The position numbers and the translations under genes were made by a program. Shown here piece after piece: positions 26,582 to 44,562 of a DNA stretch of 51,870 nt. Where the stretch lies: contig JASEER010000015.1 in assembly GCA_030019475.1 (NCBI GenBank), forward strand, positions 1 to 51,870, read 5' to 3'. The DNA comes from Thermoanaerobacterales bacterium. Lineage in GTDB: Bacteria; Bacillota; Desulfotomaculia; Desulfotomaculales; JASEER01. The notes beneath the pieces are model-generated. The model ran no database searches and was not told the origin of the DNA. It saw only the letters and a program-made list of their open reading frames with translations. How positions within the stretch are numbered: the stretch's first letter is position 1; every line of letters starts with the position of its first letter.

Positions 26582-26707
26582 CGTGGTCCGGACCGTTGTC
26601 AGTTTCACTCTGTGCCGCGCCGTCCTCCGCCTTGCCGCCCCCTTCCTCGTCAAGGACATTAGAAGAGAATTGGAAAAGGATTAAAATTGATTTCAGGCGT
26701 TTTCTAA
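26582..26707. repeat. Degenerate direct copy of the pepSY/response-regulator control region
   Basis: Bases 26582-26652 match 43098-43168 at 66 of 71 positions, and 26653-26707 match 43769-43823 at 49 of 55, by eye and in the same orientation. The first block corresponds to the 3' part of the pepSY gene (read on the minus strand), the second to the control region upstream of the response regulator. About 600 bases present in the right copy are missing here, so this is a pseudogene scar plus an operator copy. Together the copies flank the cobalamin cluster. Confidence 0.88.
26658..26690 (+). promoter_or_regulatory. Copied OmpR-type operator, three 11-bp repeats
   Basis: ATTAGAAGAGA, ATTGGAAAAGG and ATTAAAATTGA are three head-to-tail 11-base units, the spacing used by OmpR/PhoB-family regulators. 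The same array is at 43774-43806 before the response regulator gene. It ends 21 bases upstream of the -35 box of the riboswitch promoter. Confidence 0.5.
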
Positions 26708-26711
26708 GCGC

Positions 26712-26740
26712 TTGACAGGCGGTTTAACGGGACTTATACT
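26712..26740 (+). promoter_or_regulatory. Sigma-A promoter of the cobalamin cluster
   Basis: TTGACA (26712-26717), 17-base spacer, TATACT (26735-26740): an almost perfect consensus promoter. Transcription should start near 26747, about 20 bases before the riboswitch. Confidence 0.85.
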
Positions 26741-26764
26741 TTGGACAAACACCATAAAGCAGTA

Positions 26765-26994: not shown

Positions 26995-27030
26995 AATCCC
27001 TGACCCATTGCTTGGGGTCAGGGATTTTTT
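26995..27030 (+). terminator. Riboswitch expression-platform terminator
   Basis: AATCCCTGACCC (26995-27006) pairs with GGGTCAGGGATT (27015-27026) around a short loop, followed by a T run to 27030. It lies between the riboswitch and cbiM, the normal place for transcriptional control. Confidence 0.9.
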
Positions 27031-27070
27031 ATCTCGGTTTATCGCCAAAAAGTTTGAAAGGGTGGTCATT

Positions 27071-27733
27071 GTGCACATTATGGAAGGGTTTCTGCCCATT
27101 GGTCACGCGTTGGCCTGGACTGCGGCCTCGGCGCCGTTTCTGGCTCACGGGCTGTATTCCATCAAGAAAAAAGCGGGCGCCCAACCCGAAGCAAGGATGC
27201 TTCTGGGGCTGTCGGGGGCATTTACTTTTGTCCTGTCAGCCCTCAAATTGCCTTCCGTTACCGGTAGTTGTTCACATCCCACGGGTACAGGCCTGGGCAC
27301 AATCCTCTTCGGCCCCAGCGTAATGTCTGTCATCGGCTGCGGCGTATTGTTGCTGCAGGCATTGCTGCTGGCACACGGAGGTATTACCACACTTGGCGCC
27401 AATACTTTTTCAATGGCTGTGGCGGGACCGTTCGCGGCGTACGGTGTGTTCCGCCTGTGTCAGTCTTTGAGGGTTCGCTTTAGCATAGGGGTGTTTTTGG
27501 CTGCCTGCGTAGGGGATCTAATGACCTACGCGACTACTTCCTTTCAGCTTGCCCTGGCTTTTCCTGATCCCGTTGGCGGGTTTGCCGCTTCGCTGGTCAA
27601 GTTCGGAACGATTTTTGCCGTGACGCAGGTGCCTCTGGCCGTAAGCGAGGGGTTGCTTACCGTGTTGGTGTTCAGCGCTCTGCATATACACAATGACAAA
27701 CAGGTGCGCGATTTGTCGATTGGGAGGCGTTAA
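27071..27733 (+). CDS. cbiM: Cobalt ECF transporter substrate-specificity component
   Basis: 220 residues, several spans. The N-terminus [16 protein letters not shown] is decisive: in CbiM/NikM the amino group, His2 and a later His coordinate the metal. Other signatures are [19 protein letters not shown] and [20 protein letters not shown]. The open frame extends back through the riboswitch, but GTG 27071 follows AAAGGGTGG and gives the family start. With CbiN, CbiQ and the CbiO domain it forms the cobalt importer. Confidence 0.96.
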
Positions 27734-27736
27734 GAT

Positions 27737-28039
27737 TTGAAGAGGCTATCAAAAAATATGTTACTCATCGTTGGCGTTGTTTTGTTGTCTGTCTTGCCTT
27801 TCTTTCTCGTTGCCGGCACGGGCGATTCGAAAGCCGAAATGTTTACGGGCGCTGACGGACGGGCCGAAGAGATGATTATGGAAATCAGACCCGACTATAA
27901 GCCGTGGATCAAACCCATCTGGGAACCGCCCTCCGGTGAAATAGAGAGCTTGCTGTTTGCTTTGCAGGCAGCTTTAGGGGCTGGTTTTATCGGATACTAC
28001 TTCGGCCGCAGGAAGGCCCGGAGGAATTACATTGATTGA
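27737..28039 (+). CDS. cbiN: Cobalt ECF transporter component CbiN
   Basis: 100 residues with two membrane spans (MLLIVGVVLLSVLPFFLVAG and LLFALQAALGAGFIGYYFG) and an outside loop with FTGADGRAEEMI and YKPWIKPIWEPPSGEIESLL, all typical of CbiN, which helps load cobalt onto CbiM. TTG start at 27737, three bases after the cbiM stop. Overlaps cbiQ by 8 bases. Confidence 0.94.
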   Translation: MKRLSKNMLLIVGVVLLSVLPFFLVAGTGDSKAEMFTGADGRAEEMIMEIRPDYKPWIKPIWEPPSGEIESLLFALQAALGAGFIGYYFGRRKARRNYID

Positions 28040-28799
28040 CCGGTATGCCTATGCCAGTCCCCTGGCGATGAGACCCGCGGCGGAAAAGGTAGTCTCTGTG
28101 TTGCCGGTCCTTCTTGCCTGTTTCGTGGCGCGCTCTTTCTGGATACCCTTGCTGGCGTTCGGCTTTATAACGCTGTTGACGCTGGGTGTCGCCCGCACTC
28201 CGTGGCAGGTGTACCTGCGTGTCATGCTGGTACCGGCCTTCTTTATACTGGCCGGTTTACCGGCGGTGGCGCTGTCGGTTACCACCGAATGTCCTTCCGG
28301 AGGATACTGGCTGACCGTTTGCGGTATTCATTTGGGCTTTACTTCAGCGGGGTTGTCCCAGGCGCGTGATATTCTGACTCGTACCCTGGGTGCTGTCTCC
28401 TGTATGTGCTTTCTTGCCTTGTCTACACCGATGCCCGACCTTATCGGTTTCCTGCGGCGCTGCCGGGTGCCGGCCCTGTTCCTGGACCTGCTGGCCCTTA
28501 TTTATCGCTTTGTGTTTGTTCTCCTGGAGACCGGGCTGGCGATGCAGAGGGCGCAGGCACTTCGCCTGGGTTACATCACGCCGGGGACCGGCTTCCGCTC
28601 GGCGGGCTGCCTGTTCGCCAACCTCTTCATGCGGGCGCAGCATCGCGCCCATAGCCTGTATGTGGCCCTTTCCACCAGGGGCTACGAAGGTCGCCTGGAT
28701 GTGGTGGAAAAGCCGTACCGCCTGTCTGTATGCAATGTGGCGTTATCGGCAGTGACGGGCGGGTGGCTGCTTGTGCTGGCTGTGGTGACCAGGGGTTAG
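28032..28799 (+). CDS. cbiQ: Cobalt ECF transporter transmembrane protein CbiQ
   Basis: 255 residues of the T-component family. IDRYAYASPLAMRPAAEKVV at the start, several spans, and the coupling helices with AQALRLGY and LYVALSTRGYEGRL (the AxxxRG-type motif that contacts the ATPase). TTG start at 28032 overlapping cbiN. Five bases before the CbiO-CbiC gene. Confidence 0.94.
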   Translation: MIDRYAYASPLAMRPAAEKVVSVLPVLLACFVARSFWIPLLAFGFITLLTLGVARTPWQVYLRVMLVPAFFILAGLPAVALSVTTECPSGGYWLTVCGIHLGFTSAGLSQARDILTRTLGAVSCMCFLALSTPMPDLIGFLRRCRVPALFLDLLALIYRFVFVLLETGLAMQRAQALRLGYITPGTGFRSAGCLFANLFMRAQHRAHSLYVALSTRGYEGRLDVVEKPYRLSVCNVALSAVTGGWLLVLAVVTRG

Positions 28800-28803
28800 G
28801 CTG

Positions 28804-30432
28804 GTGGACGACGCGATTTTTGAAATGCGGGGAGTAACCTACCGCTATCCGGATGGCACGCCCGCGTTGCGGGGAGTCAGCGCGGCGCTGCGCCGGGGAC
28901 AGAGAATCGCCGTTCTGGGCGCCAACGGAGCGGGCAAGACGACGCTCTTCCTGCACCTGGTAGGCGTACACAGGCCGAACGAGGGAAGCGTGCATTTTCG
29001 CGGCCGGCCCCTGTCTTACGGCCACCGCGCCTTGCAGTCTTTGCGGCGCCGGGTGGGGATGGTTTTCCAGGACCCCGACGCCCAGTTGTTCTCGGCCAAT
29101 GTTTACCAGGACGTTTCCTTCGGTCCTCTTAACCTCGGTCTTCCGGAGGCCGAAGTGCGCCGGCGTGTTGAACAAGCACTTGCTACGGCAGGCATCGCCG
29201 GTCTGGCCGAACGTCCCACGCACGCGCTGTCTCACGGGGAAAAGAAACGGGCGGCGTTGGCGGGGGTGCTGGCTATGGAGCCGGAGGTCCTGATCTTTGA
29301 CGAGCCCACGGCCGGGCTTGACCCGCGGGGGGCTTCGGAGATGATAGAACTCCTGCGCCGCCTCCGGGCGGGGGGAAAGACCGTGCTTTTCTCCACCCAC
29401 GACGTTGATCTCGCCTATACCGCCGCCGACTGGTGCCTGGTGCTTGCCCGGGGTCGGGTCATCGGGCAGGGGGCGCCGACAGAGGTTTTTAGGGATCAGG
29501 CCCTTCTTGCCGCCGCCGGCCTGGCCACACCCTGGCTGTTGGACCTTTTTGAGGAGGCCCGCCGCAGGGGCTGGGTGGCTGAAGGCGGGAAGCCCCCGTT
29601 GCACCGAGGAGACCTTTTTAAGATTCTGGAGGCCGGCTTCGGCGCCGGGAAGACGCCGCCGGGAGGAAGCGTGGGCGTTGCGGCGCCCGGAATCGCCGGG
29701 GACGACGAAACGGGGAACATGCTGCCGCCGCCGGAGGTTGCTTTCCGGGAGAGCAGGGTTTATGCGCTCTACGAACGGCCGGTGTCGGGGGATGAAATCG
29801 AGGCCGAGTCCCTCCGCCGGATTGAGGCCGAAGCGCCGCCTCACAGTTACAGGCCCGAAGAATGGAGCGTGGTCCGGCGGCTCGTCCATACCACGGCGGA
29901 CTTCGGCCTGGTAGGAATGGTGCGCTTCGCGCCGGGAGCCGTCGAGGCCGGGATAAAGGCACTGAAGCGGGGCGCCCCTGTTTTTACCGACGCCAATATG
30001 GTCAGGGCGGGGATTTCCCAAACCAGGCTCCGGCGGGCGTGTCCCGCTTATACACCGGAACACATTCACTGCCTGATCGCCCATCCGGCCGTCATTGCCG
30101 AGGCCCGGGCCGCCGGCCTGCCGCGCTCGCTCTTCGCGGTGCGAAGGGCCCGCCCCATCCTCGAGGGGGGCATCGCGCTCATAGGCAATTCGCCGGTGGC
30201 CCTCCTGGAACTGAACAGGATGATCCGGGAAGGAGAGGCCAGCCCGGCTCTGGTCGTGGCGATGCCGGTGGGTTTCGTCCACGTGGAGGAGAGCAAGCAG
30301 GAACTGATGGAACTGGGTGTGCCCTATATCTGCCTGGCCGGCCGGCGGGGAGGAAGCACCCTGGCGGTGGCGGCGCTGCACGCTTTAGCCGTCCTGGCCG
30401 CCGGCGATCAACGACCGACTACCGACCACTGA
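28804..30432 (+). CDS. Fused cobalt transport ATPase and cobalt-precorrin-8 methylmutase
   Basis: 542 residues in one uninterrupted frame. Residues 1-275 are a complete CbiO ATPase: GANGAGKTT, FQDPDAQLFS, LSHGEKKRAALAGVLAMEPE, LIFDEPTAGLD and STHDVD. After a Gly/Pro linker, residues about 310-530 are a complete CbiC: EWSVVRRLVHTTADF with the catalytic His near 362, DANMVRAGI, IGNSPVALLEL, PVGFVHVEESK and GRRGGSTLAVAA. The reaction moves a methyl from C11 to C12 to give cobyrinate. The last residues (QRPTTDH) come from a spacer word repeat. An internal ATG (GNMLPPPEV) might give free CbiC. Confidence 0.92.
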   Translation: MDDAIFEMRGVTYRYPDGTPALRGVSAALRRGQRIAVLGANGAGKTTLFLHLVGVHRPNEGSVHFRGRPLSYGHRALQSLRRRVGMVFQDPDAQLFSANVYQDVSFGPLNLGLPEAEVRRRVEQALATAGIAGLAERPTHALSHGEKKRAALAGVLAMEPEVLIFDEPTAGLDPRGASEMIELLRRLRAGGKTVLFSTHDVDLAYTAADWCLVLARGRVIGQGAPTEVFRDQALLAAAGLATPWLLDLFEEARRRGWVAEGGKPPLHRGDLFKILEAGFGAGKTPPGGSVGVAAPGIAGDDETGNMLPPPEVAFRESRVYALYERPVSGDEIEAESLRRIEAEAPPHSYRPEEWSVVRRLVHTTADFGLVGMVRFAPGAVEAGIKALKRGAPVFTDANMVRAGISQTRLRRACPAYTPEHIHCLIAHPAVIAEARAAGLPRSLFAVRRARPILEGGIALIGNSPVALLELNRMIREGEASPALVVAMPVGFVHVEESKQELMELGVPYICLAGRRGGSTLAVAALHALAVLAAGDQRPTTDH

Positions 30433-30443
30433 CGTCTGACGAC
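30405..30443. repeat. Word-repeat spacer at the end of the fused gene
   Basis: The words CGACCGACTACCGACCACTGA and CGTCTGACGACTGA are built from repeats of GAC(T/C)GAC. They run from the last codons of the CbiO-CbiC gene into the gap before cbiX. Same style as the other word-repeat spacers, but without an inverse arm. Confidence 0.5.
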
Positions 30444-30462
30444 TGAAAACGAGGTGCTGTTG

Positions 30463-30948
30463 ATGCGTGCGTTAATTCTGCTGGGGCACGGAAGCCGCGT
30501 GCCCGAAGCGGCCAGGGAAATGGAGATTCTGGTCGGGATGCTGCGGGAGATCACCGGGATCCCGCTGGTGCGGGTCTGTTTTCTCTCCCGCTTGGGACCG
30601 CACCTGCCCGAGACCCTGGCGGCCTGTGCCGCTGACGGCGCCAGGGAGATTATCGTCATCCCCTACTTCCTGCACACCGGGCTGCACATCCTGGTCGATA
30701 TTCCGCGCGAGCTGCAGAAGCTGGCGGCGGACTACCCGGGTGTAAAAATCGTCTACGGGCGTCATCTGGGCTGCGACCCGGTCTTCGCGGACATCCTGGC
30801 CCGCCGCGTGCAGGAGTCCTTGACCCTGCCCGACGTGCGGGAGATCAGGGTACCCGACCGCTCCCGGTACCCGGTGCCGCCCGGGCAGGGCGAGTTCGTG
30901 GAAGTGCTTCCGGATTTTTGCGCCTGCGGAGGTATTGAACAGCGTTGA
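30463..30948 (+). CDS. cbiX: Sirohydrochlorin cobaltochelatase
   Basis: 161 residues of the CbiX type. It inserts cobalt into sirohydrochlorin, the committed step of the anaerobic pathway. RALILLGHGSRVPEA carries the first catalytic His; IVIPYFLHTGLHILVDIP carries the second His region. The tail has CACGG near the end, reminiscent of the metal-ligand tails of some CbiX proteins. ATG 30463 follows GAGGTG; the upstream GTG is part of that site. Overlaps cbiD by 4 bases. Confidence 0.9.
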   Translation: MRALILLGHGSRVPEAAREMEILVGMLREITGIPLVRVCFLSRLGPHLPETLAACAADGAREIIVIPYFLHTGLHILVDIPRELQKLAADYPGVKIVYGRHLGCDPVFADILARRVQESLTLPDVREIRVPDRSRYPVPPGQGEFVEVLPDFCACGGIEQR

Positions 30949-32048
30949 CGGGCGGGAAAGGGGCGCGAAAACGGGACCACTGCGGCAAGAACAGCCTGAG
31001 ACGTGGCTACACGACCGGAACGTGTGCTGCACTAGCGGCGCGGGGCGCCGCCCTCTGGCTGCTTGAGGGGCGTTTCCCTGAAACGGTCACGATCCTTCTG
31101 CCCGGAGGTGAACCCGTAACCATGCCGGTGCATGCAGTCTACCGTGACACGTCTGCCGCCGAGTGTTACGTGATTAAGGATGCGGGCGACGACCCCGATG
31201 TAACCAACGGGATGGCCGTGCACGCCCGCGTCGAACCTGCCGCGTTTCCGGGCGTTGTCATCGATGGAGGACAGGGCGTCGGTCGCGTTACCAAACCCGG
31301 CCTTCCCGTCGCGGTGGGAGAGGCGGCCATTAACCCCGTGCCGCGGGCGATGATCGCCGGCGCGCTGGCCGACCTTGTGCCTCCCGGCGGGGGCTGGAGG
31401 GTTGCCGTTTCCGTTCCCGGAGGAGCCGGGATCTCCGGGCGTACCTTCAACCCGCGGCTGGGTATCACCGGCGGGATTTCGATTCTCGGCACCACCGGCT
31501 ATGTCGAGCCGCGCAGCCTTGACGCCCTGCGGCGTTCGCTCCCGCCGCTCCTGGACATCCTTCATGCCGCCGGATGCCGGGAGGTCTGTCTGGTCCCGGG
31601 CAATATCGGCCGACGGGCGGCACGGCGCTTGCTGCCGCCGCCCGCGGAGGAGCAGATCGTGGAGGTCAGCGATTTCCTGGGCTTTATGCTGGACGAAGCA
31701 TCCCGGCGGGGCTTTACCCGGATCGTCCTCGTCGGGCACCCGGGTAAACTGGCCAAGGTCCTGAACGGGGACTGGCAGACGCACGCCAAGTACGCCCGGC
31801 CGGCCAACGGCGCCGTTATCGAATTTTGCGCCGCCGCCGGTCTGCCGGAAAACCTCCTCCGGCGTTTAAGGGAACTGCCGACGGTGGAAGCGATTCAGCA
31901 GGTGCTGCTTAATGAAGGGTACGGCCGTTTGCTGGGGATGCTGGCGGGCACGATCAGGGTTTTGGTGCGGGAAAGGCTGGGGCCGGAGCCTTACGTGGCG
32001 GTGCACCTCTGCGACCTGCAGGGGAACATTGTGGGGGAAGCGCTGTGA
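30945..32048 (+). CDS. cbiD: Cobalt-precorrin-5B C1-methyltransferase
   Basis: 367 residues. LRRGYTTGTCAALAARGAAL at the start is the CbiD hallmark; VIKDAGDDPDVTNGM, GVGRVTKPGLPVAVGEAAINPVPR and NPRLGITGGISILGTTGYVEP follow. It methylates C1 of the corrin ring with SAM after loss of the two-carbon unit. TTG start at 30945 overlapping the cbiX stop. Confidence 0.96.
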   Translation: MTGGKGARKRDHCGKNSLRRGYTTGTCAALAARGAALWLLEGRFPETVTILLPGGEPVTMPVHAVYRDTSAAECYVIKDAGDDPDVTNGMAVHARVEPAAFPGVVIDGGQGVGRVTKPGLPVAVGEAAINPVPRAMIAGALADLVPPGGGWRVAVSVPGGAGISGRTFNPRLGITGGISILGTTGYVEPRSLDALRRSLPPLLDILHAAGCREVCLVPGNIGRRAARRLLPPPAEEQIVEVSDFLGFMLDEASRRGFTRIVLVGHPGKLAKVLNGDWQTHAKYARPANGAVIEFCAAAGLPENLLRRLRELPTVEAIQQVLLNEGYGRLLGMLAGTIRVLVRERLGPEPYVAVHLCDLQGNIVGEAL

Positions 32049-32707
32049 AACCGGAACGAGGGAGACTGACCATTGTCGGCTGCGGGCCGGGCGGGGCGGA
32101 GTATTTGACGCGGCAGGCGCTTTCGGCGGTAGCCGGGGCCGAAGTGCTCTGCGGCCCCCGGTTCCTGCTCGACCTCTTCCCGGAGGCCGGGGCCGAGCGG
32201 GTGGTGACAGGAGCCGGCGCCCGCCAGGTGGCCGGCCTGGTCAGATCCCGTATGGAGGAAGGAAGCCGCGTGGTGCTCCTGGTGACGGGGGACCCCGGCC
32301 TGCACAGCCTGGCCGGTCCGGTGACGCGCCTTCTCGGCCGGGAAAGGGTGCAGGTCGTTCCCGGGATCAGTTCGCTGCAGTTGGCTTTCGCGCGCCTGGG
32401 CCTTCCCTGGGAAAATGCCCGGATCTTCAGCCTGCACGGTGTCTCCGGGGAAGAGGCGCGGCTTGTCTTAGGCGCTCTGGCTGCTGTGTCGACCGCCGCC
32501 GTACTTTGTTCGCCGGTCTGGACACCCGGGAAAATCCTTGGCGCCCTTCGGGATACGGCAGGACAACGCGAAGTACACGTCTTCTGGGACTTGGGGCGAC
32601 CTACGGAAGGGCGCATGACCGGGACGGTCGATGAACTGGCCGGGCGTTTTGAGGGTTCCGGTCGAAGCGTACTGGTTTTGACGGAGGCGGAGGAGAGTGA
32701 TGAGTGA
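32045..32707 (+). CDS. cbiE: Cobalt-precorrin-7 C5-methyltransferase
   Basis: 220 residues of the tetrapyrrole methylase fold. LTIVGCGPGGAEYLTRQAL (SAM-loop start), LVTGDPGLHSLAGPV, VVPGISSLQLAFARLGLPWE and SLHGV are CbiE features. It methylates C5. The partner CbiT, which methylates C15 and decarboxylates, is neither fused to it nor present in the cluster. GTG 32045 overlaps the cbiD stop by 4 bases. Confidence 0.92.
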   Translation: MKPERGRLTIVGCGPGGAEYLTRQALSAVAGAEVLCGPRFLLDLFPEAGAERVVTGAGARQVAGLVRSRMEEGSRVVLLVTGDPGLHSLAGPVTRLLGRERVQVVPGISSLQLAFARLGLPWENARIFSLHGVSGEEARLVLGALAAVSTAAVLCSPVWTPGKILGALRDTAGQREVHVFWDLGRPTEGRMTGTVDELAGRFEGSGRSVLVLTEAEESDE

Positions 32708-33428
32708 AACGCAGGGATCATTCTGGGGCATCGGGCTCGGTCCCGGGGACCCGGAGCTGATGTCGCTGAAAGCGAAACGCCTTATCGAGGAAGCGGACTG
32801 CGTGGTCGTGCCCAAGTCCAGCCTGGCCGGGGAGAGCCTGGCCCTGGATATCGCCCGCCCGTTTATTGGTCAAAAACCCGTGCTTGAATTCGAGTTCCCC
32901 ATGCGCCGTGACGAGCGGGAACTGATCCCTTACTGGGCGGCGGCGGCCGAGGAAATCGCCGGCCGTGTCCGGCGGGGGGAGAAGGTGGTCTTCCTGACGC
33001 TGGGAGATTGCCTTACTTACAGTACCTACTGCTACGTCCTGCGGGAATTGCGGCAAAGGCTTTCGCCGGAGCTGATCCGCTCGGTGCCGGGCATTACCAG
33101 TTTTGCCGCTGCGGCATCGGCCGCAAACTTCCCCCTGGGTGAAAAGGACGAGCGGATCGCGGTGGTGCCGGTGCCCCGCGGCGACCTGGCGCCCGTGCGT
33201 CAAGCCCTCGAAGAATTTGAGACGGTGGTGCTGATGAAGGTGGCCAAGCAACTGCCTGCCGTAATCAACCTCTTGCGCGAAATGGGCCTGGACAGGCACG
33301 CCGTCTTTATCAGCCGCGTTTCCCAGCCGGAGGAGTACCTTACGTCCGACCTGCAGTCCCTGCCGGAGGGCGAACACGGCTACCTGTCGGTGATCCTGGT
33401 GCGCAAAAAAGGAGGACGTGCGTCTTGA
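32700..33428 (+). CDS. cbiL: Cobalt-precorrin-2 C20-methyltransferase
   Basis: 242 residues. FWGIGLGPGDPELMSLKAKR, VFLTLGDCLTYSTYCYVLREL and SVPGITSFAAAASAANFPL are the CbiL/CobI signatures within the tetrapyrrole methylase fold. ATG 32700 chosen over GTG 32697, behind GGAGGCGGAGGAGAG. Overlaps both neighbours by a few bases. Confidence 0.95.
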   Translation: MSETQGSFWGIGLGPGDPELMSLKAKRLIEEADCVVVPKSSLAGESLALDIARPFIGQKPVLEFEFPMRRDERELIPYWAAAAEEIAGRVRRGEKVVFLTLGDCLTYSTYCYVLRELRQRLSPELIRSVPGITSFAAAASAANFPLGEKDERIAVVPVPRGDLAPVRQALEEFETVVLMKVAKQLPAVINLLREMGLDRHAVFISRVSQPEEYLTSDLQSLPEGEHGYLSVILVRKKGGRAS

Positions 33429-34168
33429 CCGTTTATTTCATCGGCGCCGGACCGGGGGACCCCGAACTGATCACGGTGCGGGGCAAGCGCCTTCTGGAAC
33501 GCTGCCCGGTGGTCATCTACGCGGGCAGCCTGGTCAACCCGGAAATCCTGAATTGGGCGCGGGCCGACGCGGAGAAGCACGACGCCAGCCGGCTCGACCT
33601 GGAGGCGCAGATGGCCGTCATCGCCGAAGCCGCGGGTGCGGGACGGGACGTCGCCCGGCTGCACACCGGGGATCCCTTGCTTTACGGGGCCCTCGCCGAA
33701 CAGGTACGCGCCCTGGAGCGCCTGGGCGTTTCCTATGAGGTCGTGCCGGGAGTCAGCGCCTGTTTTGCGGCGGCCGCCTTGCTGGGGAAGGAATACACCC
33801 TCCCCGGAGGCTCGCAGACCCTGATCCTGACGCGCCGTGCGGGGCGGACGCCGGTACCGGAAAGCGAAAGCCTGCCGCGGCTGGCGGCGGCCCGGGCCAG
33901 CCTGGCGCTGTACCTGAGCGCCGCCGACGCGGACGGGGTGCAGGCCGACCTGCTCCCCGCCTACGGTGCCGACTGCCCGGCGGCCGTGGTTTACCGGGCC
34001 ACCTGGCCCGACCAGCGGGTTATCCGCTGCCGCCTCGCGGATCTGGCCGCAACCGTCCGGGAGTCGGGGGTGAAGCGGCATGCCCTGATCCTGGTCGGGT
34101 CCTTCCTGGGGCGGGACGGCGGGACGAGCTATCTTTACTCGAAGGAGCGCCTGCGAGGTGAAGGATAA
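33425..34168 (+). CDS. cbiF: Cobalt-precorrin-4 C11-methyltransferase
   Basis: 247 residues. VYFIGAGPGDPELITVRGKR, VVIYAGSLVNPEIL, RLHTGDPLLYGALAEQ and EVVPGVSACFAAAALLGKEY are diagnostic of CbiF/CobM. The C-terminal SFLGRDGGTSYLYSKER resembles the family ending. TTG start at 33425 overlapping cbiL by four bases; the end overlaps cbiG by 11. Confidence 0.95.
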   Translation: MTVYFIGAGPGDPELITVRGKRLLERCPVVIYAGSLVNPEILNWARADAEKHDASRLDLEAQMAVIAEAAGAGRDVARLHTGDPLLYGALAEQVRALERLGVSYEVVPGVSACFAAAALLGKEYTLPGGSQTLILTRRAGRTPVPESESLPRLAAARASLALYLSAADADGVQADLLPAYGADCPAAVVYRATWPDQRVIRCRLADLAATVRESGVKRHALILVGSFLGRDGGTSYLYSKERLRGEG

Positions 34169-34997
34169 GCGGCCGCCGGCGGTAGTCGTCATCAACGAGG
34201 CGGGGTTCGGCCCCGGCGCGGTGGTGGCCGGAGCCCTCGAAGGGGCCCTGTACGTTCCTCTCCGCTTATTGCCCGAAGAAGCGGCCTCACCGCGCCCCGG
34301 AAATCTTTTCGGTTACGAGGGTTCGGCAGGGTACGCCGTTAGGCAATTATTCCGGAGAGGCCACGGGTTGGTGCTGGTCATGGCGGCGGGGATCGCCGTG
34401 CGCCTTTTGTCGGGCCTGCCGCAAGACAAGCGGCGCGACCCCCCGGTAGTGGTCCTGGATACCGCCGGGCGGTACGCGGTGAGCCTGCTCGCCGGGCATG
34501 AAGGCGGCGCCAACGGGCTGGCTTACCGGGTGGCGGCCGCGGTGGGCGCCGAACCGGTGGTCACCACCGGCAGCGAGGTCCACCGGACGCTTGTCGTCGG
34601 ACTCGGCTGCCGCCGGGGTGTCGGCGCGCCGGCCATCATGGCGGCCATCGAGCAGGGACTCGCTCTGGCGGGACGGGAGAAGGAGCAGCTCCGGGTTGCG
34701 GCCACCGCCGATTTCAAGGCTGAAGAGCCGGGCATCCTTGAGGTTTGCGCCGCCCTGGGCGTGGGACTGCGGGTGTTCGGCCGGGACGCCATCCGGAGCG
34801 TCGACAGGCTGTTCGGCGAGTCGCGTTGCGCCCGCAAGTATTTTGACGTGGGGGGAGTTGCTGAACCATGTGCCTTTCTGGCCGCCCGCAACGGCCGGAT
34901 TATCCTGCCGCGCCTGGTGGCGGGCCAGGTGACGGTGGCCTTGGCCGAGGATCGCTTGTGGTCGCCGGGATCGGACCGGGAGACGCCGGACACCTGA
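34158..34997 (+). CDS. cbiG: Cobalt-precorrin-5A hydrolase, short form
   Basis: 279 residues, shorter than typical CbiG (about 330-360). The N-terminal domain (LVLVMAAGIAVRLLSGLPQD, DPPVVVLDTAGRYAVSLLAG, HEGGANGLAYRVAAAVGA) passes almost directly to the C-terminal domain (VVGLGCRRGVGAPAIMAAIE, ATADFKAEEPGILEVCAALG). The middle domain normally between them seems missing. The enzyme opens the ring lactone and releases acetaldehyde. GTG 34158 overlaps cbiF; cbiH starts inside its last 40 bases in another frame. Confidence 0.9.
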   Translation: MKDKRPPAVVVINEAGFGPGAVVAGALEGALYVPLRLLPEEAASPRPGNLFGYEGSAGYAVRQLFRRGHGLVLVMAAGIAVRLLSGLPQDKRRDPPVVVLDTAGRYAVSLLAGHEGGANGLAYRVAAAVGAEPVVTTGSEVHRTLVVGLGCRRGVGAPAIMAAIEQGLALAGREKEQLRVAATADFKAEEPGILEVCAALGVGLRVFGRDAIRSVDRLFGESRCARKYFDVGGVAEPCAFLAARNGRIILPRLVAGQVTVALAEDRLWSPGSDRETPDT

Positions 34998-35695
34998 CGC
35001 CTGCCGCCCGCGCCGCCTTGTCGGCAGCCGAAGTGGTGGCCGGCTACCCCCTTTACCTCGACCTCGTCCGGGAGCACCTGGCGGGGAAAGAACTGATCAA
35101 GAGCGGAATGCGCCGGGAGGTCGAGCGGGTCCGGGAGGCCATCGCCGCCGCCCTGGAAGGCCGCCGGGTATGCCTGGTTTCGAGCGGGGATGCCGGGGTC
35201 TACGGGCTGGCCGGCCTTGTCCTTGAGGAACTTGCCCGCCGCGACCTGGTGCTCCCCTTCAGGGTCGTCCCGGGGGTAACGGCCGGCCTTGCTGCTGCAG
35301 CGCTCCTGGGGGCGCCGCTGGCCCACGACCATGCCGTGATCTCCCTTTCCGACCTCCTCACCCCTGTCGGCCTCATCAAAAGGAGGGTGCGGGCGGCTGC
35401 CGAGGCCGACTTTGTCCTTGCCCTGTACAACGTCCGTTCGCGGACGCGCGTCGAGCCGTTTGCGGCGGCCCTGGACATCCTGCGTGAAACGCGACCGCCG
35501 GAGACGCCGGTGGGCATCGTCCGCAACGCCTTCCGGGAGGGACAGGGGAGGCGCGTCGTCACGCTCGCCGAACTGGATCTCGACGACGCCGATATGTTGA
35601 CGCTGCTCATCGTGGGCAACACGCGGACCTTCACCTGGCGCGGGTTTATGATTACGCCCCGCGGCTACTTAAACAGGGGAGACCATGATGATTAA
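34958..35695 (+). CDS. cbiH: Cobalt-precorrin-3 C17-methyltransferase
   Basis: 245 residues. VVAGIGPGDAGHLTPAARAA, AEVVAGYPLYLDLV, VCLVSSGDAGVYGLAGLVLE, VVPGVTAGLAAAALLGAPLA, HDHAVISLSDLLTP and LYNVRSRTRV are the CbiH/CobJ signatures. The frame is open from 34868, but GTG 34958 with GAGG at 34947-34950 gives the family start. It overlaps cbiG by 40 bases and cbiA by 11. Confidence 0.94.
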   Translation: MVAGIGPGDAGHLTPAARAALSAAEVVAGYPLYLDLVREHLAGKELIKSGMRREVERVREAIAAALEGRRVCLVSSGDAGVYGLAGLVLEELARRDLVLPFRVVPGVTAGLAAAALLGAPLAHDHAVISLSDLLTPVGLIKRRVRAAAEADFVLALYNVRSRTRVEPFAAALDILRETRPPETPVGIVRNAFREGQGRRVVTLAELDLDDADMLTLLIVGNTRTFTWRGFMITPRGYLNRGDHDD

Positions 35696-37067
35696 GGTGC
35701 CGCGCCTGCTCGTGGCCGCGCCCTCGAGCGGGCAGGGGAAGACGACCCTGACCCTGGGCCTGCTTCGGGCCTTGAGGCGGCGGGGTTTGGCGGTGCAGCC
35801 CTTCAAGGTGGGCCCCGACTATATCGATCCGGGCCACCACGCCGGGGCTGCCGGGCGCGCGTCGCGGAACCTGGACACCTGGCTTATCGGGGCCGAGGCC
35901 TCGAACGAGCTGTTCCAACGGGCTGTCGCGGGAGCGGACATAGCGGTCCTGGAAGGGGTAATGGGCCTGTACGACGGGCTGGGGGACGGCACGACGCGGG
36001 CCTCCAGCGCCGAACTGGCCAAGATGCTGCGCACGCCGGTGATCCTCGTTATCGACATCTCCCGGCAGGGAGCCAGCGCGGCGGCTGTTGTCCTGGGCTT
36101 TCAGGCTCTCGATCCCGAAGTGAACGTTGCCGGGGTCATCCTCAACCGTGCCGGGTCGGCGCGGCACGCCGCCGTGGTCACCGAAGCCGTTGTGCAATAT
36201 TGCCGGGTGCCTGTCCTCGGGGCGATTCCCAGGGAAGAGAAACTGAAGATCCCGGAGCGGCATCTCGGGCTTTTTACGGGAGCGGAGGGCGACTGGGAGA
36301 TAGTCTACGAGCGGCTGGCCGACGCGGTCGAGCAGCACGTCGACCTTCCAGCCTTGCAGCGGTTAGCCGGGACAGCGCCGGGCCTCTCCCCGGCAAGGCC
36401 TTGCATCTTTGCCGGGGAAGCCCCCGGAGGCGCGATGCGGGTGGGGGTGGCCCGTGACGAAGCCTTCAGTTTTCTTTATGCCGACAACCTGGACATCCTT
36501 CGCCACCATGGCGCGCAACCGGTTTTCTTCAGCCCCCTTCACGACGACCGTCTGCCGCCTGACTGTGCCCTGCTTTACTTCGGCGGCGGTTACCCGGAGC
36601 TGTATACCGGGGTGCTTGCATCCAACCGGACGATGTTGGCCGCCGTCAGGTCCTACGCGGCAGCGGGGGGGCCAATCTACGGCGAGTGCGGCGGCCTAAT
36701 CTACCTGGGAGAGGGGTTGACCGATCTGGATGGCCGTTACCACCCGATGACCGGTCTTCTTCCGGTGCGCGCCGGCATGGCCGGCCGGCGGCTTTCCCTG
36801 GGTTATGCGGTGGCTCAAGCCCGGTCTGACACCCTGATCCTGGAGGAAGGCGCAGAGGTCCGGGGGCATGTTTTCCATTACTCGGAGGCCGAGCCGGAGC
36901 CCGGAAGCCGGGCCTGCCTGATGGTCCGCCAGGCTTGCGGAACACAAGTCCGGAAGGATGGCTGGCAGGCCGGGTCCGTTTTCGGCTCCTACCTGCACCT
37001 GCACTTTGCCTCGGCCCGCCACGTACTGCAGCGCCTGCTGAACAAAGCCGCGGGCTGTGGGCTGTAA
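35685..37067 (+). CDS. cbiA: Cobyrinate a,c-diamide synthase
   Basis: 460 residues. P-loop APSSGQGKTTLTLGLLRALR and VGPDYIDPGHHA belong to the ATP-dependent synthetase half; YFGGGYPELY and GECGGLIYLGEGL with the nucleophilic Cys near 335 belong to the glutaminase half. It amidates the a and c carboxylates of cobyrinate. ATG 35685 or 35688. Followed by a 74-base gap with a palindromic spacer, the first real break in the gene train. Confidence 0.96.
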   Translation: MMIKVPRLLVAAPSSGQGKTTLTLGLLRALRRRGLAVQPFKVGPDYIDPGHHAGAAGRASRNLDTWLIGAEASNELFQRAVAGADIAVLEGVMGLYDGLGDGTTRASSAELAKMLRTPVILVIDISRQGASAAAVVLGFQALDPEVNVAGVILNRAGSARHAAVVTEAVVQYCRVPVLGAIPREEKLKIPERHLGLFTGAEGDWEIVYERLADAVEQHVDLPALQRLAGTAPGLSPARPCIFAGEAPGGAMRVGVARDEAFSFLYADNLDILRHHGAQPVFFSPLHDDRLPPDCALLYFGGGYPELYTGVLASNRTMLAAVRSYAAAGGPIYGECGGLIYLGEGLTDLDGRYHPMTGLLPVRAGMAGRRLSLGYAVAQARSDTLILEEGAEVRGHVFHYSEAEPEPGSRACLMVRQACGTQVRKDGWQAGSVFGSYLHLHFASARHVLQRLLNKAAGCGL

Positions 37068-37068
37068 G

Positions 37069-37121
37069 CTGTTGGAAGGCCGTTACGAGGCGAGTCGTGG
37101 CCAGGTAAAGTTTTCCAACAG
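37069..37121. repeat. Word-repeat palindromic spacer between cbiA and cobD
   Basis: GGGCTGTGGGCTGTAAGCTGTT (from about 37052, overlapping the cbiA end) is a word repeat; CTGTTGGAA (37069-37077) recurs inverted as TTCCAACAG (37113-37121). Built like the spacers at 1121-1189 and 9982-10056. No T tail. Confidence 0.6.
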
Positions 37122-37141
37122 TCACCCCTGGAGGTGGTGTT

Positions 37142-38182
37142 ATGAAATGGGACCATGGCGGCAACATTGCCGGGGTGACGGCCGATTTCAGCGTAAGCCT
37201 CAACCCGCTCGGGCCCCCGGACTGTCTCGCCGGGCTGTTGCGGGACGCCCTTCCCTTGATAACCCGTTATCCTTCCCTTGATGCACGTCCCGCGCGCTGT
37301 TCCCTGGCGGCATTTCTCGGCCTTGATCCGGGTGAGGTGCTGGTGGGAAACGGCGCGACCGAGCTGATCAGTCTCCTCGTGCGCACCTTGCGGCCGGGGC
37401 GGGTCTGGGTTATAGAGCCGTGCTATTCGGAATACCGCGGCGCCGCCGAGGCTTGCGGGATTCCTGTGGCGGCGGTGACCTCACGGGTTGTGGACGGCAG
37501 TTTCGAACCGGTGTGGGAGACGCTTACGCCCGTGCCGGGTGACGTGGTCTTCATCGGGTACCCGAACAACCCTACCGGACAGCTTCCGTCTCCGGACGCG
37601 CTTGAGCGCCTGCGGGAGTCCTGTCCCGGGGTGTACTGGGTGTTTGACGAGTCATTTCTGGCTTTTGTGGATCCCGCAAGGGGCCGTTCCCCGGCCCTGC
37701 CGCCCATGCCGGGGGTGGCGGCGGTATGCTCGCTGACCAAGTTTTACGCGGTGCCCGGGCTGCGGCTCGGTTACCTTGTCGGGACGGGGGATCTGGTGCA
37801 GCGGCTCCTGGCGGCGAAGGATCCCTGGAGCGTAAACGGCCTGGGCGAGCACCTCGTCGGCCGGCTGCTCGCCGACACGGCTTATGCGGAAAAGACCAGG
37901 GATTTTGCGGCGACGGAGCGGGAACGGGTAACGGCCGCGCTCGTTAAGCTGGGGCTTCGCGTTTTTCGCGGAGAGGCGAACTTTCTGCTCTGTGAGCTGC
38001 CCGACGGTTATGACGTCCAAACCCTCAACGCCTGCCTGTTTAGACATGACATGGCGGTAAGGGACGCCTCTACTTTTGCCGGGCTTTCGACACGGCACTT
38101 CCGCATGGGGCTGCGCAGGGCTGAACAGAACGACCGGCTGCTCGAAGTCTTGTCGGGCTTTTTACGGGGTGAAAACGTATGA
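37142..38182 (+). CDS. cobD: L-threonine-O-3-phosphate decarboxylase
   Basis: 346 residues, PLP fold type I, HisC-like. VGNGATELISLLVRTLRPGR, IGYPNNPTGQLPSPDAL, VFDESFLAFVDP and CSLTKFYAVPGLRLGYLVG with the PLP lysine near 200. CobD makes (R)-1-amino-2-propanol O-2-phosphate for the nucleotide loop linker. Distinguished from histidinol-phosphate aminotransferase by context and the NPTGQL motif; the reaction itself is inferred. ATG 37142 behind GGAGGTGG. Overlaps cbiP by 4 bases. Confidence 0.92.
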   Translation: MKWDHGGNIAGVTADFSVSLNPLGPPDCLAGLLRDALPLITRYPSLDARPARCSLAAFLGLDPGEVLVGNGATELISLLVRTLRPGRVWVIEPCYSEYRGAAEACGIPVAAVTSRVVDGSFEPVWETLTPVPGDVVFIGYPNNPTGQLPSPDALERLRESCPGVYWVFDESFLAFVDPARGRSPALPPMPGVAAVCSLTKFYAVPGLRLGYLVGTGDLVQRLLAAKDPWSVNGLGEHLVGRLLADTAYAEKTRDFAATERERVTAALVKLGLRVFRGEANFLLCELPDGYDVQTLNACLFRHDMAVRDASTFAGLSTRHFRMGLRRAEQNDRLLEVLSGFLRGENV

Positions 38183-39669
38183 CGGCACGCGTGCTGATGG
38201 TCCAGGGCACGGCCTCTTCCGCAGGCAAGAGTCTTGTGGTGGCCGGGCTTTGCCGCCTCTATGCCCGGAGAGGCTTCCGGGTGGCTCCTTTCAAGAGCCA
38301 GAACATGGCCCTCAACTCTTACGCCACCCGGGACGGCGGGGAAATCGGCCGCGCCCAGGCGTTGCAGGCCGAAGCTGCAGGCATCCCGCCCCACGTGGAC
38401 ATGAACCCCATTCTCTTGAAACCGACAGGGGAGGCGGGCAGCCAGGTAGTGGTGCTGGGGCGGCCCCTGGGCGTCTACAAGCCGGCTGATTATTACGCCT
38501 TAAAGGAAAAGCTGTGGCCGATGGCCGTCGCCGCTCTCGACCGGCTCCGGGCCGACTGCGACCTGGTGTTTGCCGAAGGGGCGGGAAGCCCGGCCGAGAT
38601 CAATCTCCGACCGCACGACATCGCTAATATGGATGTGGCGCTTTACGCCGGGGCCCCCGTCCTGCTCGTCGGGGACATCGAACGCGGCGGGGTGTTCGCT
38701 TCCCTGCTCGGAACGATGGAACTGCTGGCGGAAAGGGAACGGGAACTTGTCGCTGGTTTCGTTGTCAATAAGTTCCTGGGCGATGAAGAGCTTTTGCGGC
38801 CCGGGCTGGCCTTAATCGAGGAGCGGACAGGCCGGCCGGTGCTGGGCGTGTTGCCTTACCTGCGCGATCTCCACCTCGACGAAGAGGACTCGGTGAGCCT
38901 GTCCGGGCGGGGAAAGACGCCGGTTCCGGGCGACCTGGCGGTGGCGGTCGTCCGTTTGCCCCGGATATCCAACTACACTGATTTTCTGCCCCTCGAGACC
39001 GAGGACGGGGTAGCGCTGCGTTACGTCGACCGCCCGCAAGAACTGGACGGCGCGCACATGGCCATCCTTCCCGGCAGCAAAGAGACGCTGGCCGACTTGG
39101 CCTGGCTCAACCGCCGCGGGCTGGAGCGGGCGCTGCGCGGCTTCGCCGCCCGGGGAAAGCCCTTGCTGGGCATTTGCGGCGGCTTCCAGATGCTCGGCCG
39201 GACCATCCGGGAGGGGGAGACGACGGTTTCAGGGCTTGGCCTGCTGCCCGTGCACACCCGGTTTGCGCCCGAGAAGCGCACTGTCCAGGCGAGCGGCGTC
39301 ACGGCCGGCGGGGTTTGGGGTATTCCGGGCGGGCTTCCCGTCCGGGGATACGAGATCCACATGGGGTTCTCCGAGGTATGCGGGGGAAGACCGTGCTTCC
39401 TGCTCGACGGGCAGGGAACAGGCATCGTGCCTGAAGGCTGCGCCGCCGAAGAAGGTTACGTGGCGGGGACTTACCTGCACGGGTGCTTCGACGCTGACGC
39501 CTACCGGGCGCACTGGATAGCAGCCGTGCGCCGCATTGCGGGACTGCCGGCCCGACCATCCATACAGCCGCGGTTTGCCGCGCGCCGGCAGAAGGACCTG
39601 GACCGGATCGCCGACCTGCTGGCGGAAAGAATCGGGGTGGAGCGGCTGGATGGAGTTCTTGGCCTCTAG
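38179..39669 (+). CDS. cbiP: Cobyric acid synthase
   Basis: 496 residues. Synthetase half with MVQGTASSAGKSLVVAGLCR, PFKSQNMALNSYAT and DCDLVFAEGAGSPAEINLR; glutaminase half with LLGICGGFQMLGRTI, nucleophilic Cys near 333. It amidates the b, d, e and g carboxylates of adenosylcobyrinate diamide. ATG 38179 overlapping cobD; cbiB starts inside the end. Confidence 0.97.
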   Translation: MTARVLMVQGTASSAGKSLVVAGLCRLYARRGFRVAPFKSQNMALNSYATRDGGEIGRAQALQAEAAGIPPHVDMNPILLKPTGEAGSQVVVLGRPLGVYKPADYYALKEKLWPMAVAALDRLRADCDLVFAEGAGSPAEINLRPHDIANMDVALYAGAPVLLVGDIERGGVFASLLGTMELLAERERELVAGFVVNKFLGDEELLRPGLALIEERTGRPVLGVLPYLRDLHLDEEDSVSLSGRGKTPVPGDLAVAVVRLPRISNYTDFLPLETEDGVALRYVDRPQELDGAHMAILPGSKETLADLAWLNRRGLERALRGFAARGKPLLGICGGFQMLGRTIREGETTVSGLGLLPVHTRFAPEKRTVQASGVTAGGVWGIPGGLPVRGYEIHMGFSEVCGGRPCFLLDGQGTGIVPEGCAAEEGYVAGTYLHGCFDADAYRAHWIAAVRRIAGLPARPSIQPRFAARRQKDLDRIADLLAERIGVERLDGVLGL

Positions 39670-40609
39670 AGCCGGCGTAATCCTGGCCGCCCTGATCCTG
39701 GACCGGCTGCTGGGCGATCCCCGCCGGCTTCCGCACCCTGTCCGGCTGATCGGCCGCTTGATCGCTTCCGGCGAATCCCTGCGGCGCCTGCCGCTGCCGG
39801 CGCGCTGGTCAGGAACCCTGCTGGCCCTGGGCGTGATCACGGCAGCCGGCGGAACGGCCTGGCTGCTGGTTAATCTGGGGCGGACGGCGGGCCTTTGGTG
39901 GGGCCTGGGTGTTGAAACCCTGCTGGTTTACCTGGCCGTTGCCCCTTGTTCCCTGGCCGGCGAGGCGCTCGCGGTGGACGCCGCCCTGCAACACGGCAAC
40001 CTGCCGGGCGCGCGCCGGAGACTGGCGATGATCGTCGGGCGCGACACCGCCGGGCTTGATGAACGGGAGGTCCGCCGGGCGGTGGTGGAGACGGTGGGCG
40101 AGAATACGGTCGACGCGGTGCTTTGCCCCGTTTTCTATGCGCTTCTCTTCGGCCCGGTGGGAGCCTGGGTTTACAAGGCTGTCAGCACGCTGGATTCGAT
40201 GATCGGTTACCGGCACGAGCCGTACCGTGATTTCGGCCGGGCCGCCGCCCGGCTGGACGACCTCGCCGCCTTTGTCCCGGCGCGGTTGGCCCTCTTTTTC
40301 GTGCCAACGGCGGCCCTGTTATCCGGCCTGTCGGCACGGGACGCCTGGCGGGTGGGCTGGCGGGACCGTTTGGCCCACCCCAGTCCCAACGCCGGCCACG
40401 GGGAAGCGCTGTTCGCGGGGGCGCTCAAAGTTCGTCTCGGCGGGCCGTCAACCTACCACGGGATGCCCTCGGAAAAACCGTACCTCGGCGCGGAATTTCC
40501 GGCGCCCGGGCGGTCAGCCGTGCGCCGGGCGGTGACCCTGCTCTGGGCGACCACCTGGCTGTTTGCCGTAGCGGGCTCGGCGGTTCTGGTGTTCCTTGGC
40601 TTATTTTAG
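39650..40609 (+). CDS. cbiB: Adenosylcobinamide-phosphate synthase
   Basis: 319 residues, multi-span membrane protein. LILDRLLGDPRRLPHPVRLI at the start, VETVGENTVDAVLCPVFYAL, AVSTLDSMIGYR, RLDDLAAFVPARL and RDRLAHPSPNAGHGEALFAG are CbiB hallmarks. It attaches the aminopropanol phosphate to cobyric acid. ATG 39650 inside the end of cbiP gives the family start. Confidence 0.96.
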   Translation: MEFLASRAGVILAALILDRLLGDPRRLPHPVRLIGRLIASGESLRRLPLPARWSGTLLALGVITAAGGTAWLLVNLGRTAGLWWGLGVETLLVYLAVAPCSLAGEALAVDAALQHGNLPGARRRLAMIVGRDTAGLDEREVRRAVVETVGENTVDAVLCPVFYALLFGPVGAWVYKAVSTLDSMIGYRHEPYRDFGRAAARLDDLAAFVPARLALFFVPTAALLSGLSARDAWRVGWRDRLAHPSPNAGHGEALFAGALKVRLGGPSTYHGMPSEKPYLGAEFPAPGRSAVRRAVTLLWATTWLFAVAGSAVLVFLGLF

Positions 40610-40638
40610 CAAAGGTGGGAGAAGGGCTGGTCTTAACG

Positions 40639-41178
40639 ATGGCGCAACAATCGCCCGAAGTAGTGCTGGTCCTCGGCGGCACCCGGAGCGGGAAGAGCGA
40701 CTGGGCCAGGCACTATGTCGAAAACCGCTACCGGAAGCCGGTCTTCCTGGCCACGGCCCGGGATGGCGATGCGGAGATGGAGGCGCGCATCGCCCGCCAC
40801 CGGCGGGAGAGAGGCGGGGAGTGGGGCCTGGTTGAGGAGCCGATGGAGATCGCGGCCGTGTTAACCGATCCCGCCCGGCGGCCCGGGGCCGATGCGATCC
40901 TGGTCGATTGTCTGACCATGTGGCTGACCAATATCGTCCTGACCGAGGGGGAGACGGCGGTCGAACGCCGCACCGCCGAACTGTTGGCGGCGCTGCGTGA
41001 TCCGCCCTGTTCTGTAGTGCTTGTCGCCAACGAGGTCGGGATGGGGATTGTACCCGAGCACGAACTGGGCCGGTGGTTCCGGGACGCGGCAGGCCGGCTG
41101 AACCAGCAGGTGGCCGGCCTGGCGCGCCGCGCAGTCCTTGTCATTGCCGGTTTGGCCCTTGATCTTAAAAATGAATAA
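40639..41178 (+). CDS. cobU: Adenosylcobinamide kinase / guanylyltransferase
   Basis: 179 residues. LVLGGTRSGKSDWARHYVE is the P-loop; FLATARDGDAEMEARIARHR, VDCLTMWLTN and VANEVGMGIVPEHELGRWFR are CobU signatures. It phosphorylates adenosylcobinamide and transfers GMP. The frame reaches GTG 40615, but ATG 40639 gives the usual short N-terminus. Follows cbiB after 29 bases. Confidence 0.95.
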   Translation: MAQQSPEVVLVLGGTRSGKSDWARHYVENRYRKPVFLATARDGDAEMEARIARHRRERGGEWGLVEEPMEIAAVLTDPARRPGADAILVDCLTMWLTNIVLTEGETAVERRTAELLAALRDPPCSVVLVANEVGMGIVPEHELGRWFRDAAGRLNQQVAGLARRAVLVIAGLALDLKNE

Positions 41179-41198
41179 GGTGGGAGAGAGAGGAGAAA

Positions 41199-42257
41199 AT
41201 GCAATCCACGTCCCTTTCTGAAATCATCAGTGCCATCCGTCCGGTTGACCCCGACCGCCTGCGCGCGGCCCAGGACCACCTGGACAACCTGACCAAGCCG
41301 CGCGGGAGCCTCGGCATGCTTGAAGAGATCGCGGCCCGGATGGCGGCCCTGAGCCGGGAAGTCAGGCCGGCCGTCCGTGCGGCAAGGATCTTTGTCTTTG
41401 TGGGGGATCACGGGGTGGTGGAAGAGGGCGTTTCGGCCTACCCTCCCGAAGTCACCACGCTTATGGTCCACAACTTCCTTGCCGGGGGCGCGGCTATCAA
41501 CGTGCTGGCGCGCCGCGCCGGGGCCGAGGTGCGCGTCGTCGACGTAGGCATGCGGGACAGGGTTGATGTCCCGGCACTGATTAACCGCAACGTACGGCGG
41601 GGCGCCGGCAACATCGCCCGCCGGCCCGCCATGTCGGTGGAGGAAGCGATGCAGGCCCTGATGGCGGGGGCGGAGATGGCTATGCAGGCGGACAGCGAGG
41701 GAAGCACCCTGATTGGGCTTGGCGAAATGGGGATCGGCAATACGACTCCTTCGGCGGCCCTGTACGCGGCCCTGTTGCCCTGTGCGCCGCGGGAAATTGT
41801 CGGAAAGGGCACCGGGCTGGATGCGGCCGGCGTCGCGCGGAAGATCGAGACGGTAGCCACAGTGCTGGCGGTCAATCAGGAGCGCCTGACCGACCCTCTG
41901 TCCACCCTCGCGGCCGTAGGGGGCCTGGAAATCGCGGCCATCGCCGGCTGCTGCCTGGGGGCGGCCGCCTGCGGCCTTCCGGTGGTGGTGGATGGTTTCA
42001 TCTCGGGAGCGGGAGCCCTGGCGGCGATGCGCATGGCCCCGGCGGTCCGCGACTACCTGTTCTTCTCGCACGTCTCGGCCGAAGCGGGACACAAGCTCTA
42101 TTTTAACCGCGAGGGCTTGCGCCCCATGCTGGACCTGGACATGCGCCTGGGTGAAGGGACGGGAGCCGCTATCGGGATGCAAATCATCACGGACGCGGTG
42201 GCGATCTACAACGAGATGGCCACCTTCGCCGACGTCGGCATCGAGCCGGGAGCCTAA
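41199..42257 (+). CDS. cobT: Nicotinate-nucleotide:dimethylbenzimidazole phosphoribosyltransferase
   Basis: 352 residues. LDNLTKPRGSLGMLEEIA, FVGDHGVVEEGVSAYP, GLGEMGIGNTTPSAAL, DGFISGAGALAA and SHVSAEAGHKLYF are CobT signatures, including the catalytic Glu region near the end (MLDLDMRLGEGTGAA). It activates the lower ligand base as its ribotide. No gene for making dimethylbenzimidazole is in the cluster. ATG 41199 behind GGTGGGAGAGAGGAG. Confidence 0.97.
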   Translation: MQSTSLSEIISAIRPVDPDRLRAAQDHLDNLTKPRGSLGMLEEIAARMAALSREVRPAVRAARIFVFVGDHGVVEEGVSAYPPEVTTLMVHNFLAGGAAINVLARRAGAEVRVVDVGMRDRVDVPALINRNVRRGAGNIARRPAMSVEEAMQALMAGAEMAMQADSEGSTLIGLGEMGIGNTTPSAALYAALLPCAPREIVGKGTGLDAAGVARKIETVATVLAVNQERLTDPLSTLAAVGGLEIAAIAGCCLGAAACGLPVVVDGFISGAGALAAMRMAPAVRDYLFFSHVSAEAGHKLYFNREGLRPMLDLDMRLGEGTGAAIGMQIITDAVAIYNEMATFADVGIEPGA

Positions 42258-42259
42258 AG

Positions 42260-43000
42260 TTGCGCGGGTTGATTACAGCCATCCGAACCTTGACGGTCGT
42301 ACCTGTCCCGGGACGCGACGCCTCGCGGCTGGCGGACGCGCTGCCGTACTTTCCTGCGGTCGGGGTCATCCTTGGGGGTCTCGTAACCCTTGGGGGGCAG
42401 GGGTTGCTGGCCGCCGTCCCCGGGTGGACGGCAGGGGCGGCGTCCGTCATGCTGCTGGCGGAAATGCTGCTGACGGGGGCGATCCATACCGACGGCCTGG
42501 GCGACGCCGCCGATTCCCTGGGGGCGGGACGCGACCGGGGGCGGGCCCTGGCCATTATGAAAGATCCCCGGCAGGGCAGTTTCGGCGTCGTAGCCATCGC
42601 CCTCTCGCTGCTGTTTAGATGGGTAGCCTACGCACGCCTTCTGGAAGGGGCCGACGGATGGGGACTCGTTATCGGGGCCTTTGCTGTATCGCGGGCGGGC
42701 ACAGCTCAATTGGCCGCCTTCCAGCCTTACGCCCGAGCGGAGGAGGGAACGGGCCGGCCCTTTGTCGGCGAAGGGCGTATCCTGCCGGTGGCTGCGGGGT
42801 GGCTGATTACTGCGGGAATCGCCGTGTTTATTGCGAAGTGGGCCGGCTTGGTGGCATTGGGCCTCGGTACGGGTTTTGCCTGGGCTTTTGGGTGTTGGTG
42901 CCGGGGGCGTTACGGCGGCGTAACGGGCGATCTGCTGGGGGCACATACGGAAATATCTCTGGTTCTCGCCCTGTTTTTACTGGCTGTCTTGCACCGGTAA
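42260..43000 (+). CDS. cobS: Adenosylcobinamide-GDP ribazoletransferase
   Basis: 246 residues, multi-span. LITAIRTLTVVPVPG at the start, YFPAVGVILGGLVTLGG and AIHTDGLGDAADSLGAGRDR with the metal-binding acidic motif, then RALAIMKDPRQGSFGVVAIA. It joins the ribazole phosphate to adenosylcobinamide-GDP to make cobalamin phosphate. TTG start at 42260, two bases after cobT. Last gene of the cluster. Confidence 0.96.
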   Translation: MRGLITAIRTLTVVPVPGRDASRLADALPYFPAVGVILGGLVTLGGQGLLAAVPGWTAGAASVMLLAEMLLTGAIHTDGLGDAADSLGAGRDRGRALAIMKDPRQGSFGVVAIALSLLFRWVAYARLLEGADGWGLVIGAFAVSRAGTAQLAAFQPYARAEEGTGRPFVGEGRILPVAAGWLITAGIAVFIAKWAGLVALGLGTGFAWAFGCWCRGRYGGVTGDLLGAHTEISLVLALFLLAVLHR

Positions 43001-43744: not shown

Positions 43745-43773
43745 ATAATGTAACCCGGGACGATGAGAAGGAC

Positions 43774-43840
43774 ATTAGAAGAGGATTGGAAAAGGATTAG
43801 AATTGACTCTAAGCGTTTTCTAATCTCCAGGGTGTACAAT
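43774..43840 (+). promoter_or_regulatory. OmpR-type operator array and promoter of the response regulator
   Basis: ATTAGAAGAGG, ATTGGAAAAGG and ATTAGAATTGA (43774-43806) are three head-to-tail 11-base units, followed by CTAAGCGTTTTCTAA and a -10 like TACAAT (43835-43840). No good -35, as expected for an activated promoter. Probably bound by the regulator encoded next. An 89-percent copy of this block stands upstream of the cobalamin riboswitch. Confidence 0.55.
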
Positions 43841-44558: not shown

Positions 44559-44562
44559 AGGG

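Follow-up and report, generated by a model that had tools for sequence, protein, structure and literature searches.

The report on DbfQRS of Vibrio cholerae places PepSY-kinase-regulator modules in several phyla, some of them with genes on opposite strands, and gives indications that dbfQRS is positively autoregulated (PMC12714742). The pho box is composed of 11-bp direct-repeat units with seven conserved and four loose bases (PMC4415409) and overlaps the -35 region (PMC3348028). PhoB of E. coli is reported to be strict in the spacing it requires and to have many sites that are inert (PMC10294691). The window (the whole stretch of 51,870 nucleotides that was analysed) contains a locus that resembles DbfQRS in that a small secreted PepSY-domain protein adjoins a two-component system (PF03413, PF00072/PF00486, HisKA/HATPase_c). 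It differs in belonging to a Desulfotomaculales-type lineage and in that the divergent genes share a predicted six-unit operator; no operator of this kind is described in the passages found in the DbfQRS paper. The array at this native locus is similar to the pho box in its 11-bp tandem units and in the placement of a box in the -35 region, but its unit is ATTAGAA/TTCTAAT and its boxes stand back to back for two divergent promoters. The regulator is also unlike PhoB in its score of 215 bits, below the PhoB equivalog cut-off of 296. Like cobalamin riboswitch-controlled cbiMNQO operons, the cobalamin operon of the window has an RF00174 aptamer and a terminator-like hairpin ahead of cbiM; unlike them, it carries a foreign operator fragment directly upstream of its core promoter, which is absent in relatives. 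In the literature on PepSY proteins with operator repeats, or on cobalamin riboswitches together with a response regulator, the combination was not found. The cobalamin-side fragment is probably a duplication relic, which may have kept a cryptic binding site. The coordinates of all features are collected in Table 1.

Table 1. Features of the cobalamin promoter region and of the native pepSY/regulator-kinase locus, with positions in the window.
Feature	Position	Strand	Evidence or remark
pepSY 3' coding-end remnant	26582..26652	-	copy of 43098-43168, 66/71 identical; 29-aa pepSY match, E 3.6e-6
Operator-segment copy	26652..26707	+	50/56 identical to 43768-43823, blastn E 1e-13
Intact forward units F2-F4 (ATTAGAAGAGA ATTGGAAAAGG ATTAAAATTGA)	26658..26690	+	three 11-bp units
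Reverse-unit slots R1 (TTTCAGG, broken) and R2 (TTCTAAG, retained)	26691..26712	-	matrix scores
Cobalamin operon core promoter TTGACA-17-TATACT	26712..26740	+	11/12 consensus
Cobalamin riboswitch aptamer RF00174	26753..26944	+	128.8 bits, E 3.8e-32; gathering score 31.5
Terminator-like hairpin, then T run	26995..27026	+	between riboswitch and cbiM
Cobalt uptake/cobalamin operon (cbiM, cbiN, cbiQ, cbiO-cbiC fusion ... cobT, cobS)	27071..43000	+	
Gene for a secreted pepSY-domain protein (178 aa), from which the remnant derives	43069..43605	-	PF03413, E 4.6e-15
Putative pepSY-promoter -10 (TACATT)	43747..43752	-	10 bp beyond F1 core
Native six-unit bidirectional operator F1 F2 F3 F4 R1 R2	43763..43828	+	conserved in L039-L042, L045, L048
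Regulator-promoter -10 (TACAAT)	43835..43840	+	10 bp beyond R2 core
OmpR/PhoB-type response regulator gene	43854..44558	+	PF00072, PF00486
Sensor histidine kinase gene	44555..45975	+	HAMP, HisKA, HATPase_c; ATG-initiated alternative ORF 44446-45975 overlaps

The native units lie in one 11-bp register, with forward units starting at 43763, 43774, 43785 and 43796 and reverse units at 43807 and 43818. Of the 113 genomes of the order searched for pepSY, 14 had hits, and six units in exact 11-bp register were found between divergent pepSY and regulator genes in this genome and at six loci of relatives (L039, L040, L041, L042, L045 and L048). Across the seven six-unit loci the cores of F1-F4 read ATTRGAA and those of R1 and R2 TTCTAAT. 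At every one of the seven, the regulator -10 stands 10 bp past the end of the R2 core, and outward from the F1 core a pepSY -10-like hexamer follows after 10 bp in six, the exception being L048. At L043 an insertion shifts the R pair, and a TATAAT is kept beyond the pair. The source array had been described as three units of OmpR/PhoB type. These three units are present, but the native array comprises six (four forward and two reverse); the assignment to the OmpR/PhoB type is upheld by the conservation in relatives. The arrangement fits an operator of this type in which a two-unit box, presumably bound by the regulator, substitutes for the -35 element. At the native locus, phosphorylated regulator dimers on R1R2 would stand in for the -35 of the regulator promoter, in the fashion of PhoB, and dimers on F1F2 would do so for the pepSY promoter. 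The geometry of such a two-way operator comes from conservation, and binding and activation are predicted; to judge from the same geometry, F2-F4 would natively serve the pepSY side and the centre. The useful outcome is this symmetric, conserved array, which lies between the divergent pepSY and regulator genes and keeps an exact 10-bp step to the -10; the six-unit model yields a concrete rule, open to test, for binding in a two-component system linked to PepSY.

Since two abutting matches (66/71 and 50/56) lead to this one locus, the segment upstream of the cobalamin promoter could be identified as a 126-bp condensed pepSY/operator duplicate of 43098-43823, in which 43169-43767 is missing, a gap of 599 bp relative to the source. 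The pepSY remnant is 93% identical to its source and lies directly upstream of the operator copy. The neighbouring pepSY part had been reported as deleted, which holds for the 599 bp but not for the 71 bp of the 3' coding end that survive. The three 11-base units of the preliminary description were recovered at 26658, 26669 and 26680, ending at 26690, 21 bases before TTGACA (26712), and they do copy the array at 43774-43806 (31/33 identity). The motif scan of the genome that had been suggested as a check returned only the cobalamin-side and the native arrays. The 33-mer of the array, with up to three mismatches, occurs at two places only in the 2.28-Mb genome (control pattern, 0), and the three-unit motif, again with up to three mismatches across the whole genome, was found just in the arrays at 26658 and 43774 (control, 0); at other places in the genome, weak matches to two units were close to the background of the control pattern. 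Chance similarity of copy and source is ruled out by the blastn E value of 1e-13, the unique 33-mer and the matrix scores. A mobile repeat family is likewise ruled out, the sequence being present at two genome places only. Comparison of the left flank (26434-26581) with the window and with relatives gave no informative match on the origin of the duplication.

The units in the copy were scored with a matrix built from four relatives, with this genome left out. F2, F3 and F4 scored 14.1, 10.9 and 14.6 in the copy and 14.1, 10.9 and 14.1 natively, giving three-unit sums of 39.6 bits versus 39.1. When the window was shuffled eight times (first-order), no three units scored higher than 14.1. The two base changes of F2-F4 relative to the source sit at tolerated positions. 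As the copied F2-F4 rank as high as the native units, they are likely to still bind the regulator. The F1 position reads TCGTCAA, and the unit is lost. R1 scores 2.5 bits in the copy versus 8.5 natively and R2 11.5 versus 14.1, and both native -10s are absent from the copy.

It had been proposed that the cobalamin operon would be under dual control. The regulator on F2-F4, with or without R2, would raise or lower the cobalamin promoter, and the riboswitch operon would also answer to the pepSY-kinase signal. The array does lie directly upstream of a genuine promoter, and its score equals the native one and is far above the shuffled-window maximum; the native spacing and orientation rule is broken there, though. 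The distance from R2 to the -10 is 26 bp versus 10 bp natively, and the -35 element follows R2 after 3 bp. A PhoB-like activated promoter would have two intact units ∼10 bp before the -10, a layout that the copy fails to provide with R1 broken and R2 26 bp off, and F2-F4 are oriented away from the cobalamin promoter. The start site is expected ∼57-89 bp downstream of these units, and an activator bound at such a distance could touch the polymerase alpha subunit, which counts against the copy being a relic. Also weighing against dual control are a near-consensus promoter without need of an activator, an array that is preserved no better than the adjoining dead sequence, and its absence from the other cobalamin promoters examined. 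With the core-to--10 spacing of 10 bp broken and the array lacking at orthologous promoters, we did not uphold dual control and regard it as unlikely. For the relic, the sequence of events was probably a segmental duplication of the pepSY/operator region, with a 599-bp internal deletion, set against a pre-existing cobalamin core promoter. F2-F4 should still be bound in the copy, but they point away, with their promoter-proximal partners broken and the spacing wrong; from these three features, cobalamin transcription most likely relies on the consensus -35/-10 and the riboswitch.

The retention of the three units had been pointed out in the preliminary description. In the copy, F2-F4 differ from the source at 2/33 positions, the pepSY remnant at 5/71 and R1R2 at 4/17, and the divergence of F2-F4 matches that of the dead pepSY fragment (Fisher p = 1) in a comparison of copy and source within one genome, the sole family member compared. 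With equal divergence in both parts, the sequences give no sign of array-specific preservation, and the retained units do not hold as evidence of selection. This bears also on the idea that the copy is a decoy that titrates the regulator from its own locus and so tunes the two-component system, not the cobalamin genes. The genome has just two strong arrays, as a decoy would have it, but a single additional site in each genome would bind very few regulator molecules, and with array and dead fragment diverged alike there is no sign of selection. We consider a decoy highly improbable.

The relatives' cobalamin promoters were compared with that of the window. Similarity to genome G020, which we take to be Candidatus Desulforudis audaxviator MP104C, is 85% and starts at 26708, the base after the last one of the copy (26707). 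The cobalamin promoter of G020 (GCGCTTGACA...TATACTTTGGACAAACACCAT) is without the array; in the same genome arrays were not found and the pepSY search gave no hit. In G001 the core promoter is kept and the array is absent. No array was found upstream of the orthologous cobalamin operon in G020, G001, G040, G049 and G058, and among the inspected boxes of array geometry in 113 genomes of the order, none precedes a cobalamin riboswitch. Among relatives, the repeats are thus conserved at the native pepSY/regulator locus but not at the orthologous cobalamin promoters. The copy might also act as A/T-rich upstream DNA (a UP-like element or bent DNA) that boosts the promoter independently of the regulator. 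An 11-bp-phased A/T-rich segment directly upstream of the -35 in a window of 64.5% G+C would suit this, but in G020 and G001 the promoter is kept though the segment is absent, and we hold such a role to be improbable. The copy at the cobalamin promoter most likely amounts to ordinary debris of a duplication. There is a small chance that it is a working graft, in which a duplicated two-component operator on a riboswitch promoter would represent early regulatory rewiring and the PepSY/kinase signal and cobalamin would jointly set a large operon; if true, it would clearly illustrate how a promoter can acquire a second input via DNA duplication.

The two repeats are in direct orientation, one on each side of the 16-kb operon. 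The junction would be accounted for by a tandem duplication of ∼26708-43823 in which most of the first copy was then lost. G020 has the same gene order from cbiM as far as the gene at 39.5 kb, and a scan of named genomes for CbiM gave a best identity of 75%. Between this genome and G020, protein identity is 84.7% for the cobalamin proteins and 83.1% for RpoA, whereas G020 and G040, assigned to one genus, share 94.7% in RpoA and only 68.7% in the cobalamin operon proteins. The first pair of values fits together and the second does not, so that G020 looks like a transfer recipient, which probably acquired the cobalamin operon horizontally. This comparison agrees with a report that cobalamin synthesis in Candidatus Desulforudis audaxviator MP104C appears horizontally acquired (PMC4406082). 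That the operon of the window is a recent foreign insert that created the repeats is unsupported, the identity pattern pointing to G020 as the recipient.

Within the operon, a single 542-aa frame (28804-30432) joins CbiO (cobalt-transporter ATPase) to CbiC (precorrin-8X methylmutase). The fusion is probably not a sequencing error, because it is matched over nearly its full length in G020, G058 and G040. Elsewhere in the window, a stretch of low G+C (12001-13000; 45.5% versus about 64.5%) lies just downstream of a tmRNA gene (11558-11916), and tmRNA genes are a common integration site. Near the two-component system, 47503-49731 on the reverse strand encodes a 742-aa protein with PepSY, two YcdB/YcdC repeat and S-layer homology domains. 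Two arrays outside the pepSY loci were noted by eye in other genomes. A second array of G045 (L192 ∼1500; G045:C11:111421-111449), ∼20 kb from the pepSY locus, precedes a secreted-protein gene with 10 bp to a TACAAT and is divergent to a lipoprotein/ABC-transporter pair; it is likely a further target of the regulator. In G016 a four-unit array (L212 ∼1500; G016:C56:95734-95762) stands before a small exported protein gene, with a TATTCT ∼10 bp past the outer unit on the reverse strand, and is a possible further target.
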